Part shown: piece after piece, positions 47,184-49,913 of the stretch | Numbering within the stretch: position 1 is the stretch's first letter | Layout: every line of letters begins with the position of its first letter | Origin: an uncultured Roseovarius sp. | GTDB lineage: Bacteria > Pseudomonadota > Alphaproteobacteria > Rhodobacterales > Rhodobacteraceae | DNA: 64,000 nt | Assembly: GCA_951812895.1 (NCBI GenBank) | Contig: OX638333.1 | Location: 1,974,366-2,038,365 of the forward strand | Reading direction: 5' to 3' | The notes under the pieces: model-generated | The model's database searches: none | The model's input: only the letters and a program-made list of their open reading frames with translations | What the model was told of the DNA's origin: nothing | Made by a program: the position numbers and the translations under genes

Positions 47184-47188
47184 CTGCC

Positions 47189-47194
47189 AAAATT
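47189..47194. repeat. Flanking 6-bp direct repeat, left copy
   Basis: AAAATT directly precedes the left terminal inverted repeat; the same six bases follow the right one (49775-49780). It is most simply the target-site duplication. The family is usually credited with 8 bp, but only 6 match here. Confidence 0.7.
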
Positions 47195-47219
47195 GGGGAA
47201 TTATATACGATAGTGCCCA
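47195..47219. repeat. Left terminal inverted repeat
   Basis: 25 bases starting GGGGAATTATATACG and ending GTGCCCA, an exact reverse complement of 49750-49774. The inner ten bases ATAGTGCCCA recur at 47255-47264, a likely second transposase-binding motif. Confidence 0.95.
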
Positions 47220-47226
47220 AAAGGGC

Positions 47227-47255
47227 TTGACGCCCTAGACCATAGGTGATTCAAT
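47227..47255 (+). promoter_or_regulatory. Putative transposase-operon promoter
   Basis: TTGACG (47227-47232), 17 bases, TTCAAT (47250-47255): a five-of-six -35 box and a four-of-six -10 box at ideal spacing, 27 bases before the ATG at 47282. The -10 end overlaps the repeated ATAGTGCCCA motif, so transposase could repress its own promoter. This is inferred. Confidence 0.55.
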
Positions 47256-47281
47256 AGTGCCCAAGATCAAGGGAGATACAC

Positions 47282-48259
47282 ATGGCACAGAAAGCACCCG
47301 GTAAGCACTATCGTGAAGGTATCAGCCTCGTAAAGCTGTTCAAGATATTCCCCACCGACGAAGCCGCCGAGAAGTGGTTTACCGAGGAACGCTGGGCCGA
47401 TGGTCCTCACTGTCCACATTGCGGATCGACCAGCGTGCTGTCCGGGGCGGCACACAAGACCATGCCCTACCGTTGCCGTGAGAAGGAATGCCGCAAGCGA
47501 TTTTCAGTTCGCACTGGGACGTGCATGGAAGCGTCCAATCTCGGTTATCAGGTCTGGGCAATTGCGATTTACCTCATGACCACCAGCCTCAAGGGTGTTT
47601 CGTCTATGAAGTTGCATCGCGATCTGGAGATTACCCAGAAAGCCGCTTGGCATTTGGCGCACCGGGTGCGCAAAGCGCTTGAGGATGATGGTGTTGCACT
47701 GCCCTTTGGTGGCCCGGTGGAAGCCGACGAAACCTACATCGGCGGACTCGAAAAGAATAAGCACAAGGGCAAGAAGTTGAATGCCGGGCGCGGCGGCGTT
47801 GGCAAAGCCATCGTCGCTGGCGTGAAGGATCGGGAAACCAATCAGGTTATTGCCAAGGTCGTACGGGACACCACGTCGAAGACGCTGCAAGGCTTTGTCA
47901 TTGACCACACCACCGAGTGCGCGGCCGTCTACACAGATGATGCCAGCGCTTATAAGGGGATCAACAGGACGCACGAGGCAGTTCGCCATTCCGTTGGTGA
48001 GTATGTTCGGGAACAAGCTCACATCAACGGTCTGGAAAGCTTCTGGGCACCGCTCAAACGCGCTCACAAGGGCACGTTCCACAAAATGAGCCCCAAGCAC
48101 CTGAACCGTTATGTGAATGAGTTCTCAGGCCGTCACAATGTCCGTCCGCAAAACACCATCGACCAAATGTCAGGCGTGGTTACTGGCATGGAGGGCAAGC
48201 GCCTTCGCTACGTTGATTTGATTGCAGACAACGGTTTGGCAAGCGGAGCGCGGTCATGA
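47282..48259 (+). CDS. IS1595-family (ISXO2-like) transposase
   Basis: 325 residues. The N-terminal zinc ribbon has Cys 44, 47, 65 and 70 ('PHCPHCGST', 'RCREKECRKR'). The ISXO2-like DDE core follows, with a first Asp in 'VEADETYIGG' (149), a second in 'AVYTDDASAY' (219 or 220) and the C-terminal 'HINGLESFWAPLKRAHKGT' containing the third acidic residue (Glu 252). All expected residues are intact, so the enzyme is probably active. Ribosome site GGGAGA precedes the ATG. The stop TGA overlaps the ATG of the methyltransferase (ATGA at 48256-48259). Confidence 0.95.
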   Translation: MAQKAPGKHYREGISLVKLFKIFPTDEAAEKWFTEERWADGPHCPHCGSTSVLSGAAHKTMPYRCREKECRKRFSVRTGTCMEASNLGYQVWAIAIYLMTTSLKGVSSMKLHRDLEITQKAAWHLAHRVRKALEDDGVALPFGGPVEADETYIGGLEKNKHKGKKLNAGRGGVGKAIVAGVKDRETNQVIAKVVRDTTSKTLQGFVIDHTTECAAVYTDDASAYKGINRTHEAVRHSVGEYVREQAHINGLESFWAPLKRAHKGTFHKMSPKHLNRYVNEFSGRHNVRPQNTIDQMSGVVTGMEGKRLRYVDLIADNGLASGARS

Positions 48260-48891
48260 GTGATTCAAGCGTCGCGAATGATCTTTCTCAATTTCTCGGG
48301 TCTGAAAAGTTTTCAACAATCATGGCCGATCCACCTTGGCGCTTTGCCAACCGGACAGGAAAAATGGCCCCTGAACATAAACGTCTTGCCAGATATCCGA
48401 CAATGACGCTTGAAGACATATGCACTCTTCCCGTTTCAGATTTTGTCGAAGATCGGGCGCATTGTTACCTTTGGGTTCCAAATGCTTTGCTCCCTGAGGG
48501 ATTACAGGTCATGACCAAGTGGGGCTTTGCTTACAAGTCAAACATCATCTGGCACAAGGTCCGCAAGGATGGTGGCTCTGATGGGCGGGGTGTTGGGTTT
48601 TACTTCCGAAACGTCACCGAAGTCCTGTTGTTCGGGATACGTGGAAAAAACGCGCGCACACTTCAACCCGGGCGGCGACAGGTCAATCTGTTCGGGACGC
48701 GCAAGCGGGAGCATTCCCGTAAACCGGATGAACAGTATGATATCATCGAAAGTTGCAGCTGGGGACCATACCTGGAATTGTTCGGGCGCGGGTGCCGTGA
48801 AAACTGGACGGTCTGGGGCAACCAGGCGGGCGATGACTATAAGCCGACATGGGACACGTATAAATACAATTCGTCAGTTGCGGCGGAATAG
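48256..48891 (+). CDS. MT-A70 family DNA adenine-N6 methyltransferase
   Basis: 211 residues. The catalytic motif IV 'DPPW' is at 25-28 ('TIMADPPWRFANRTGK'), followed by the family sequences 'YPTMTLEDICTLPV', 'CYLWVPNALLPEGLQVMTKW', 'IIWHKVRKDG' and 'VTEVLLFGIRGK', and 'KPDEQYDIIESCSWGPYLEL'. MT-A70 proteins of this size in bacteria and phages methylate adenine N6 in short DNA sites. It lies between the transposase and a BglII-like endonuclease with minimal spacing, so it is most likely the protective methylase of that enzyme. The recognition site cannot be read from sequence. Confidence 0.9.
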   Translation: MSDSSVANDLSQFLGSEKFSTIMADPPWRFANRTGKMAPEHKRLARYPTMTLEDICTLPVSDFVEDRAHCYLWVPNALLPEGLQVMTKWGFAYKSNIIWHKVRKDGGSDGRGVGFYFRNVTEVLLFGIRGKNARTLQPGRRQVNLFGTRKREHSRKPDEQYDIIESCSWGPYLELFGRGCRENWTVWGNQAGDDYKPTWDTYKYNSSVAAE

Positions 48892-48893
48892 GC

Positions 48894-49592
48894 ATGTCAG
48901 AAGGCGAGAGACATTTGTTCTCGAAAAACGTCAGGCAGAAGTTTGAAATTCACAGTTATAGGAACGCAGCGTCCATTCTGGCCAACAGTTTTCCTGATCA
49001 GTTCTCACATGTGACAGATGCTTTGGAAACGTTTGAGATCACAACGGAGATGATAAGGAGACCGGGCGGCAGCAAGGGGCCAATCGCCCAATATGTGGAT
49101 ACGCTATTCCCGTTGCCCGACTGGATAGAAACCCGCATTTCCGCTGATCTTCTGGTCCGGTTGGAACATGCGAAGCAAATTGGAAATATTCTTCACAAAT
49201 ACGTCAAAAAAGGTTTTCTAGATGGTCACAGGATTGATTTTGTTTCCGGGAAAGTCGCACTTGACTTCGAGTGGAATAGCAAAGACCAGACTTATGATAG
49301 AGACCTGTATGCGTTTTCAGCCTTCTATGATGCTGGCGCAATCGACGTTGGTGTTATACTGACACGCGGTTCCTCGCTGGACAATGAGTTCTTTCGGAGT
49401 CTTGGGAAGGTTTTGAACAAGGATGGAACCCAAGGCAGCGAATACGTGTATAAGAAGTTTGGAGCATCAACAACATGGATGGGCAAATTGCTTTACAGAT
49501 TGGACGCAGGACGCAATGGCGGTTGTCCCGTCTTGGCAATCGGGATCACGCAGGAATGCATTGGAGAAAGCGATGACCAAACAGAAGTCTGA
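48894..49592 (+). CDS. BglII/BstYI-superfamily type II restriction endonuclease
   Basis: 232 residues. 'FEITTEMIRRPGGSKGPIAQ', 'RIDFVSGKVALDFEWNSKDQ', 'DRDLYAFSAFYDAGAIDVGV' and 'ILTRGSS' match the BglII/BstYI family pattern. The active site shows D115, D124 and E126. BglII has D-x8-E-x-Q, so here the middle acid is Asp and the last residue is Glu, a variant that should be checked. Family members cut at A/GATCT or R/GATCY. The ATG is two bases after the methyltransferase stop. The assignment rests on motif reading and is good but not certain. Confidence 0.8.
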   Translation: MSEGERHLFSKNVRQKFEIHSYRNAASILANSFPDQFSHVTDALETFEITTEMIRRPGGSKGPIAQYVDTLFPLPDWIETRISADLLVRLEHAKQIGNILHKYVKKGFLDGHRIDFVSGKVALDFEWNSKDQTYDRDLYAFSAFYDAGAIDVGVILTRGSSLDNEFFRSLGKVLNKDGTQGSEYVYKKFGASTTWMGKLLYRLDAGRNGGCPVLAIGITQECIGESDDQTEV

Positions 49593-49743
49593 CTACTATA
49601 ACAAGGTCATGGACCGGAGTTACCAGCCAACAAAAGCCGATATGAACAAGGACATAAGTGTACCGGTAAAACCGGAGAGGTTGATAAAGGCAGTCATGAA
49701 AGGCGGTGCAACCCGACAAGAACCTGAAGACGAAGAAACTTGA
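49573..49743 (+). CDS. Small charged ORF at the transposon's right end
   Basis: 56 residues beginning 'MTKQKSDYYNKVMDRSYQPT', very rich in Lys, Asp and Glu, with 'LIKAVMKGGATRQEPEDEET' at the end. It overlaps the endonuclease stop by 20 bases and ends seven bases before the right inverted repeat. GGAGAAAG lies upstream of its ATG. I recognise no domain. Position suggests a control or modulating peptide of the restriction unit or transposase; no sequence evidence decides it. Confidence 0.55.
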   Translation: MTKQKSDYYNKVMDRSYQPTKADMNKDISVPVKPERLIKAVMKGGATRQEPEDEET

Positions 49744-49749
49744 GAGATC

Positions 49750-49774
49750 TGGGCACTATCGTATATAATTCCCC
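49750..49774. repeat. Right terminal inverted repeat
   Basis: Exact reverse complement of 47195-47219. An AGATCT hexamer (49745-49750) abuts it and shares its first base. The AAAATT direct repeat follows at 49775-49780. Confidence 0.95.
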
Positions 49775-49913
49775 AAAATTGCCACGGGCGTGGGCAAATT
49801 TGCATCACAAATGCTTGTGTATCATACATATCCCATCGACATTCATTGAATTGTCATACCCTCATTGCTACCTTTGAACTATGCCCGGCACCGGGGCTGA
49901 TCGGTGTGTAACG

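Follow-up and report, generated by a model that had tools for sequence, protein, structure and literature searches.

The window analyzed here is a 64,000-nucleotide stretch of contig OX638333.1 (assembly GCA_951812895.1, positions 1,974,366 to 2,038,365 of the forward strand) from an uncultured Roseovarius sp. of the Rhodobacteraceae, within which a compact element of the IS1595 family of insertion sequences (ISs) encloses a putative restriction-modification (R-M) pair. A first-pass annotation of this DNA had described a transposase, an MT-A70 methyltransferase and a BglII/BstYI-like endonuclease as parts of one transposon, and domain profiles find all three where that annotation had placed them; it had missed a fourth, small open reading frame (ORF). 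All four genes are read from the same strand and overlap or nearly so (Table 1). The methyltransferase gene begins on the last 4 nt of the transposase gene (ATGA), an arrangement present in five of 11 compared elements (those of the window and of loci L035, L058 and L061, and a sister element described below), and the start of the small ORF overlaps the end of the endonuclease gene by 20 nt. G+C content falls along the unit, from 56% in the transposase gene through 52% (methyltransferase) and 47% (endonuclease) to 46% (small ORF), a pattern such as a mosaic would show.

Table 1. Features of the IS1595 element in the window
Feature	Position	Strand	Size	Basis
Left target-site duplication, CAAAATTG	47188..47195	.	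8 bp	direct reading, copy comparison
Transposon unit	47196..49773		2,578 bp	comparison of copies
Left terminal inverted repeat, GGGAATTATATACGATAGTGCCCA	47196..47219	+	24 bp	repeat search, genome-wide occurrences, copy comparison
IS1595-family transposase	47282..48259	+	325 aa	PF12762, PF12760, NF033547
MT-A70 DNA methyltransferase, DPPW motif	48256..48891	+	211 aa	PF05063, PADLOC
BglII/BstYI-type restriction endonuclease	48894..49592	+	232 aa	PF09195
Small ORF	49573..49743	+	56 aa	profile matches, alignment
Right terminal inverted repeat	49750..49773	-	24 bp	repeat search, genome-wide occurrences, copy comparison
Right target-site duplication, CAAAATTG	49774..49781	.	8 bp	direct reading, copy comparison

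The transposase matches the DDE_Tnp_IS1595 domain (PF12762, E=1.1e-36), the Zn_ribbon_IS1595 domain (PF12760, E=2.3e-8) and NF033547 (E=9.8e-52, 175.9 bits against a cut-off of 75). The methyltransferase is recognized by PF05063 (E=5.9e-29) and by the PADLOC profile MTase_II (6.9e-88), with no match among the NCBIfam profiles. The endonuclease matches Endonuc-BglII (PF09195) with E=5.4e-38 (130.7 bits against a cut-off of 26); a single-sequence search of the PDB gave no direct match to it, and the profile of its family reaches the BstYI structure 1sdo weakly (E=0.008). The catalytic residues of BglII and BstYI are D..E-x-Q; in this weak alignment with BstYI, D115, D124 and E126 of the window protein occupy the D, E and Q positions with equal spacing. 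Among ten aligned endonucleases, which share 30-72% identity with the window protein, D115 and E126 are invariant and D124 nearly so; over the whole alignment 30 columns do not vary and a further 32 hardly do. The small ORF has no counterpart in Pfam, NCBIfam or plasmids, and its best PDB profile match has E=1.1; on these searches its assignment to a known family was rejected.

The limits of the unit were set by comparison of its copies. Terminal inverted repeats of 25 bp, reported as perfect in the first-pass annotation, are indeed perfect and in place, but measure 24 bp: the outermost G/C belongs to target DNA, because other copies begin AGGGAATT or TGGGAATT, and the element therefore spans 47196-49773. 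Likewise, the 6-bp direct repeat described there (AAAATT) is present, but the full duplication is 8 bp, CAAAATTG; the values of 25 and 6 bp were accordingly replaced by 24 and 8 bp. Target duplications of 8 bp are typical of the IS1595 family. AT-rich duplications of this length are tabulated for a family member, ISApl4, in the portion of PMC12561309 available to us. With up to three mismatches, the terminal 25-mer occurs at eight places in the 4.54-Mb genome, every one of them at copies of the element, and the reversed control occurs at none, which argues against chance; the terminal 13-mer occurs 16 times, each at an end of the window element or of the sister element. Judged from these sequence features, the unit bears the marks of the IS1595 family, namely an ISXO2-like DDE transposase with a zinc ribbon, inverted repeats and 8-bp duplications. 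A composite transposon was considered and rejected, the unit having a single transposase gene and inverted repeats at its ends only. An outward promoter-like match (11/12) lies at 49740-49769, with its -10 box inside the right inverted repeat; the region has two promoter-like matches, not above the number in shuffled sequences (mean 2.5).

Copies, empty sites and prophages

The host genome is represented by one contig, and copy counts rest on that single assembly. Identical units at other loci, looked for as the first-pass annotation had proposed, were found in the form of five further copies in this genome. In all six, the transposase, methyltransferase and endonuclease proteins are 100% identical and a 2,530-bp core is the same base for base; the suspicion that the R-M genes were a chance insert in one IS copy is contradicted by their presence in every one. 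The window copy and locus L011 end exactly at the element limits, in unrelated flanks, and each has a perfect 8-bp duplication of its own, that of L011 being AAATGAAT. The remaining copies (L009, L010, L013 and L014) share one common flank pair; their right end is altered, and their flanks show no duplication that matches.

Empty sites were sought in relatives. The left flank is present in 30 of 60 relatives, the host genome included, and ten loci were examined, nine of them from congeners with flanks 77-82% identical to those of the window. At seven of the nine congener loci the site is empty: the flanking genes (mechanosensitive-channel-like and rsfS-like, named by reading) stand 221-251 bp apart, as compared with about 2.8 kb in the window, or about 229 bp once the element and one duplication are subtracted. 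At L134 another ORF lies between the flanking genes, and at L133 no rsfS-like match was seen in the stretch examined. No R-M pair fixed at this locus without the terminal repeats was seen in the relatives examined. Genes unrelated to transposition lie inside the inverted repeats of one IS, which is what characterizes a transporter IS (tIS), and the proposal that R-M genes are passengers of an IS1595-type unit is supported by the six identical cores, the two different duplications and the empty congener sites. The complete unit occupies two targets, each with its own 8-bp duplication, and also lies within repeated prophage DNA; it appears to be mobile, its multi-copy state being indirect evidence of transposition. 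We therefore regard it as an autonomous IS1595-family tIS, the cargo of which is predicted to be a complete Type II R-M system, with a probability of roughly 0.86.

Four of the six copies sit, 46-49 kb apart, in prophage-like repeats at the contig ends (L158-L169, e.g. L158:7463 to L160:9923) that are 99.7-100% identical over long stretches. Ten proteins of these repeats were compared with PHROGs, and eight of them have matches in named phage families (terminase, portal, major head, tape measure, DnaB-like helicase, DNA methyltransferase, Erf-like and tail fibre). The terminase gene occurs twice in the genome, and therefore not every repeat is a complete prophage of a single type; the repeats may form a true array or result from assembly. 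Since four copies lie in such repeats, a carrier may move the unit between cells; transfer of that kind probably requires one, and a prophage is a candidate, making phage a possible vehicle. An exact 22-mer of the inverted repeat had no match in viral contigs, where one relative of the transposase was found (47% identity), and phage records hold four relatives, the best full-length ones at 32-35%. Beside the prophage copies, the ORF at L160:8757-9923 has an integrase-like start (by reading, with no PHROG match) and also contains a stretch common to the ORF at L158:14516-15418, so that it looks like a product of recombination.

The same genome harbors four copies (L015-L018) of a 4,545-bp sister element, with one base differing between L015 and L018. 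Its transposase is 68-69% identical to that of the window, the first 13 bases of its ends are equal, and its cargo is an N6/N4 methyltransferase fused to an HNH nuclease (PF01555, 2.8e-38; PF01844, 4.6e-12), together with a small ORF akin to that of the window (E=7e-6, two-sequence comparison) and an IS630-like insert (named by reading, with DDE_3 and helix-turn-helix (HTH) matches). L018 is bounded by a perfect 8-bp duplication, AAACATTT. The 8-bp duplications of L015-L017 show a cyclic permutation among the three copies, a result that recombination between copies, or misassembly, would give.

The methyltransferase-endonuclease pair in other settings

Genes of the two cargo families are common partners outside the transposon. 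An MT-A70 methyltransferase adjoins a BglII-type endonuclease in 24 of 25 viral-contig loci (L171-L195), and no IS1595 transposase lies beside the pair in the stretches examined there; this is a common phage-borne R-M pair. Thirteen plasmids have an endonuclease match, and both of the two examined, p5 of Roseomonas mucosa and pZM22-2 of Comamonas resistens (L020 and L023), carry the pair with no IS1595 transposase annotated next to it. Within the bacterial family, 56 of 394 genomes (the host genome included) encode a BglII-type endonuclease, and the pair is found at six of seven loci that were extended, the seventh (L140) starting 120 bp from a contig end. L137, L138, L141 and L142 have the pair with no IS1595 match in the stretch examined. 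At L139 a broken IS1595 transposase (37%) directly precedes an open methyltransferase (72%) and endonuclease (67%), and transposon ends were sought there and not found; L143 has pieces of a transposase followed by a methyltransferase (69%), a distant endonuclease (26%) and a match to the small ORF. In another genus, a decayed unit with the order transposase-methyltransferase-endonuclease (L157:2600-4717), all three genes of which are broken, lies upstream of an mreB-like gene (by reading).

As adjacent genes of families that are paired elsewhere, the two cargo genes of the window would constitute a Type II R-M system. Because the pair also occurs with other IS1595 transposases or with none, it is probably an older module that IS1595 elements have picked up or exchanged.

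A clade of related elements and its cargo

We scanned 84,980 species genomes with the transposases of the window element and the sister element as the only queries, cargo playing no part in the choice, and obtained 185 pattern matches that led to 54 confirmed loci, a non-exhaustive set given that the patterns derive from the N-terminal part of the transposase. These loci come from 45 genomes, all of them metagenome-assembled genomes (MAGs) or bins, with 12 phylum names in the record titles; one Rhodobacteraceae MAG supplies seven loci and one Opitutaceae MAG three. Among 397 other genomes of the phylum, four reach E<=1e-80 for the transposase, at no more than 53% identity. Both ends and a perfect 8-bp duplication were found at 25 of the 54 loci, and at one more with a single mismatch; end pairs with a matching duplication were preferred where there were several candidates, and most loci had one pair. 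The duplications of L025 and L026 lie in T-runs and are weaker evidence. Duplications (n=27, those of the 25 loci and two of the host genome) are 82% A+T, as compared with 45% for the window.

In a tree of 37 transposases (a quick method, with the Shimodaira-Hasegawa-like approximate likelihood ratio test, SH-aLRT, as the only support), the sister element groups with copies from a Rhodobacteraceae MAG and with L069, which is represented by a partial row, at 99. Left out of the tree are 15 of the 54 loci, namely L071, which is distant, and 14 that have in-frame stops or match over a short length only; the tree keeps L050, L069, L072 and L073, which are partial or frameshifted, merges four duplicates and adds the two host-genome elements. 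L069 lies on an Opitutaceae chromosome (Verrucomicrobiota), and its DNA is 78-90% identical to the sister element in three pieces of 472-803 bp, which take in cargo DNA. In a gammaproteobacterial MAG (L075:6959-7150), a 192-bp remnant resembling a miniature inverted-repeat transposable element retains both ends, and 154 bp of it match the left part of the window element at 95% identity. Binning errors in MAGs could mimic such spread across phyla; counter to this, L025, L069 and L075 lie on megabase contigs.

As to habitat, a sponge origin is presumed for 30 loci (SB06.., MPM/MPN and OX/OY/CATOS records), and five more have no assigned source. The prefixes OX638, OY282 and CATOS were not found in PMC13224822. 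Thirteen loci bear RHO, APA, COS, CAR or IRC codes, which we read as fitting the species of PMC8163846, five are jk18x bins, a code used in an Ircinia study (PMC9531527), and one is named Spongia.

R-M genes that include a methyltransferase follow the transposase at 12 of the 54 loci, in 10 of the 45 genomes, by Pfam matches among the passengers scanned, a count that may be low. With both elements of the host genome, the clade displays about ten R-M architectures. Those of the 12 loci are a C5 methyltransferase with a protein bearing a sub-threshold HNH match (L025 and L072); a D12 methyltransferase with a SacI-like endonuclease in two ORFs (L033); a sub-threshold N6/N4 methyltransferase with Eco29kI (L042); a Type III Mod followed to the contig end by a helicase-like (Res) ORF, identified by reading and unscanned (L050:7001-11610); an N6/N4 methyltransferase fused to Mrr (L051); an N6_Mtase protein of 806 aa that is IIG-like in PADLOC (L053); an N6/N4 methyltransferase fused to HNH (L064, which is partial, L069 and L073); a Type ISP/IIG enzyme (L066); and an N6/N4 methyltransferase with MvaI/BcnI (L070). 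Perfect duplications bound four of these loci (L025, L053, L064 and L066). Both ends were found, with no matching duplication or no left flank, at L051, L069, L070 and L072, the right end only at L033, L042 and L073, and neither end at L050. The L050 contig has no right end, and its frameshifted transposase is 80% identical to that of the window in the best segment; stops interrupt the transposases of L033, L050 and L066. Other cargo includes PIN (L027), proteasome-like (L034), HTH (L056) and CsgG (L062) proteins and, at L061, an HNH protein that no methyltransferase accompanies; many passengers have no Pfam match.

As a control, we took from the genus 13 loci whose IS1595 transposases are more distant (37-50% identity), allowing ends to shift by up to four bases when seeking a duplication. 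Nine have perfect 8-bp duplications, and they likewise form long units with passengers, so that passenger carriage is common in the IS1595 family. The ten control passengers scanned comprise one R-M-like protein, two P63C, one DUF3800 and six without a match; R-M genes may be over-represented in the clade of the window element. The R-M-like protein, which is Type IIG-like with N6_Mtase and HSDR_N_2 domains, belongs to the element at L144:2112-3959 (49% transposase identity).

A profile of the small ORF, seeded from the units, matches 26 of the 54 loci at E<1e-6, and 14 of these are not seeds (L026, L030, L031, L032, L035, L037, L042, L043, L048, L057, L058, L067, L069 and L072), with L026, L030 and L067 coming from the same MAG as a seed. 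The matches lie inside the units wherever limits could be set (with a tolerance of 150 bp at the right). At this threshold the profile has no match at the other 28 loci, nor at any of the 13 distant IS1595 loci. L038 appears bare, with a transposase, a small ORF and no other chosen ORF; the right end lies at 1.4 kb, and a search for the left end found none. In two distant IS1595 elements, the P63C passengers (L145:5075-6046 and L147:3721-4710) have first residues that resemble part of the motif of the small ORF by eye, unscored by the profile. Overall, this IS clade appears to have acquired many different R-M systems behind its transposase, and a conserved small ORF often lies nearer the right end.

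Proposed explanation, rivals and known systems

In the explanation that we favor, the DDE transposase would act on both ends of the unit, and the four overlapping or abutting genes would be transcribed as one operon, which would couple production of the methyltransferase to that of the transposase. Methylation of adenine by the MT-A70 enzyme would protect a site, perhaps a GATC-centred one like those of BglII and BstYI, from cleavage by the BglII-type enzyme. A cell with one copy would already be protected, which would make further copies cheap and let them serve as backups, and a new cell reached by way of a phage or other carrier would gain restriction of foreign DNA and possibly a resistance to loss of the unit. 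Transposition would account for spread inside a genome, while a carrier may serve between cells.

Several observations weigh against this account. In-frame stops interrupt the matched stretch of at least 13 of the 54 clade transposases, and further ones are incomplete, so that many members of the clade look dead. Only two of the six host-genome copies, those of the window and L011, are clean insertions, and the identity among copies could partly reflect gene conversion or the assembly of repeats. The element was seen in no other of the 84 genus genomes searched, in which no strain-level polymorphism was observed; in the 83 other than the host, the best full-length transposase is 50% identical and one fragment 52%. 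Lastly, the endonuclease has no PADLOC match, and its presumed active site seems unusual.

Among rival explanations, the one that fares best, though we consider it doubtful, makes the unit first an addiction module acting by post-segregational killing, and a defense second, such that loss of all copies kills the cell and the transposon is thereby maintained in the population. Type II R-M pairs can behave as addiction modules, and several copies per genome together with carriage by prophages would suit a selfish module of this sort; against it, six copies make total loss unlikely, leaving little such selection in the host genome, and many members of the clade show no R-M gene. An ordinary IS1595 element with neutral cargo, in which R-M genes hitchhike, unexpressed or useless, and will decay, seems unlikely. 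The very mixed cargo of the clade, from PIN, CsgG and proteasome-like proteins to genes without identification, and the L157 relic, broken throughout, would fit such an element. However, the ORFs of the window unit are open in all six copies, the endonucleases retain their invariant and near-invariant columns at 30-72% identity, and at L139 methyltransferase and endonuclease stay open behind a broken transposase, as if the pair were kept for itself. Homologous recombination or phage amplification in place of transposition, to which the four copies in near-identical prophage repeats and the three-cycle of duplications at L015-L017 would point, stands for the extra prophage copies but is opposed for the window copy and L011 by their unrelated flanks, exact ends and different perfect duplications, as well as by the perfect duplication of sister copy L018, and as a general account is very improbable.

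The transporter IS interpretation has precedents in part. Elements such as ISNha5, MTnSag1/tISSag10 and tISCpe8 likewise combine an IS1595 transposase with passengers within one IS, and transporter ISs with IS1595 examples are treated in the available portions of PMC11891212, PMC5704250 and PMC3129680. Passengers of known IS1595 elements are, in those portions, a regulator and lincomycin resistance (the latter from a cited title), whereas the window unit has an R-M pair and a small ORF. The IS1380 family also has a methyltransferase passenger inside the IS, but it is a different IS family, for which the portion of PMC11891212 available names methyltransferases and no R-M pair. IS-linked movement of an R-M system is described in PMC3031569, which in the sections seen also cites composite transposons, PluTI and a transposon-like R-M system of Rhizobium; there, R-M genes lie between, or move with, two IS copies, whereas those of the window lie between the ends of one. 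Plasmids and phages with BglII/BstYI-type R-M systems and MT-A70 have the same gene pair, to which the window adds an adjacent IS1595 transposase. Tn7-like transposition systems are large and multi-protein; they too have R-M cargo, in contrast to which the window unit is 2.6 kb with a single transposase. R-M systems are the commonest defense cargo of Tn7-like transposons according to the part of PMC8649781 at hand. Among the matches listed, which took in few subscription papers and parts of texts, we found no description of an entire R-M pair enclosed in an IS1595 unit, of one IS that holds a complete Type II pair and is present in several copies, or of an IS clade repeatedly carrying unrelated whole R-M systems. 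Passenger-bearing IS1595 elements and mobile R-M systems are already known.

R-M systems move between genomes by vehicles that are often obscure, and this transposon clade is a candidate vehicle defined by sequence, the ends, duplications and cargo of which can be counted in any set of MAGs. More tentatively, and with somewhat less than even odds in our estimation, the clade (ends GGG[AG]ATTATATAC, often with the small ORF) may be specialized to acquire, swap and spread whole R-M systems and related ones, and may be a main vehicle of R-M genes across phyla of sponge symbionts. In sponge-symbiont genomes R-M genes are enriched and laterally exchanged, 'potentially mediated by MGEs' (mobile genetic elements), according to the portion of PMC8163846 consulted, and enrichment is also noted in parts of PMC5099237 and PMC9531527. 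The same portion of PMC8163846 reports R-M genes as largely absent from sponge Verrucomicrobiota MAGs; contrary to that pattern, all three loci of one Opitutaceae MAG (L025, L069 and L070) have R-M cargo.

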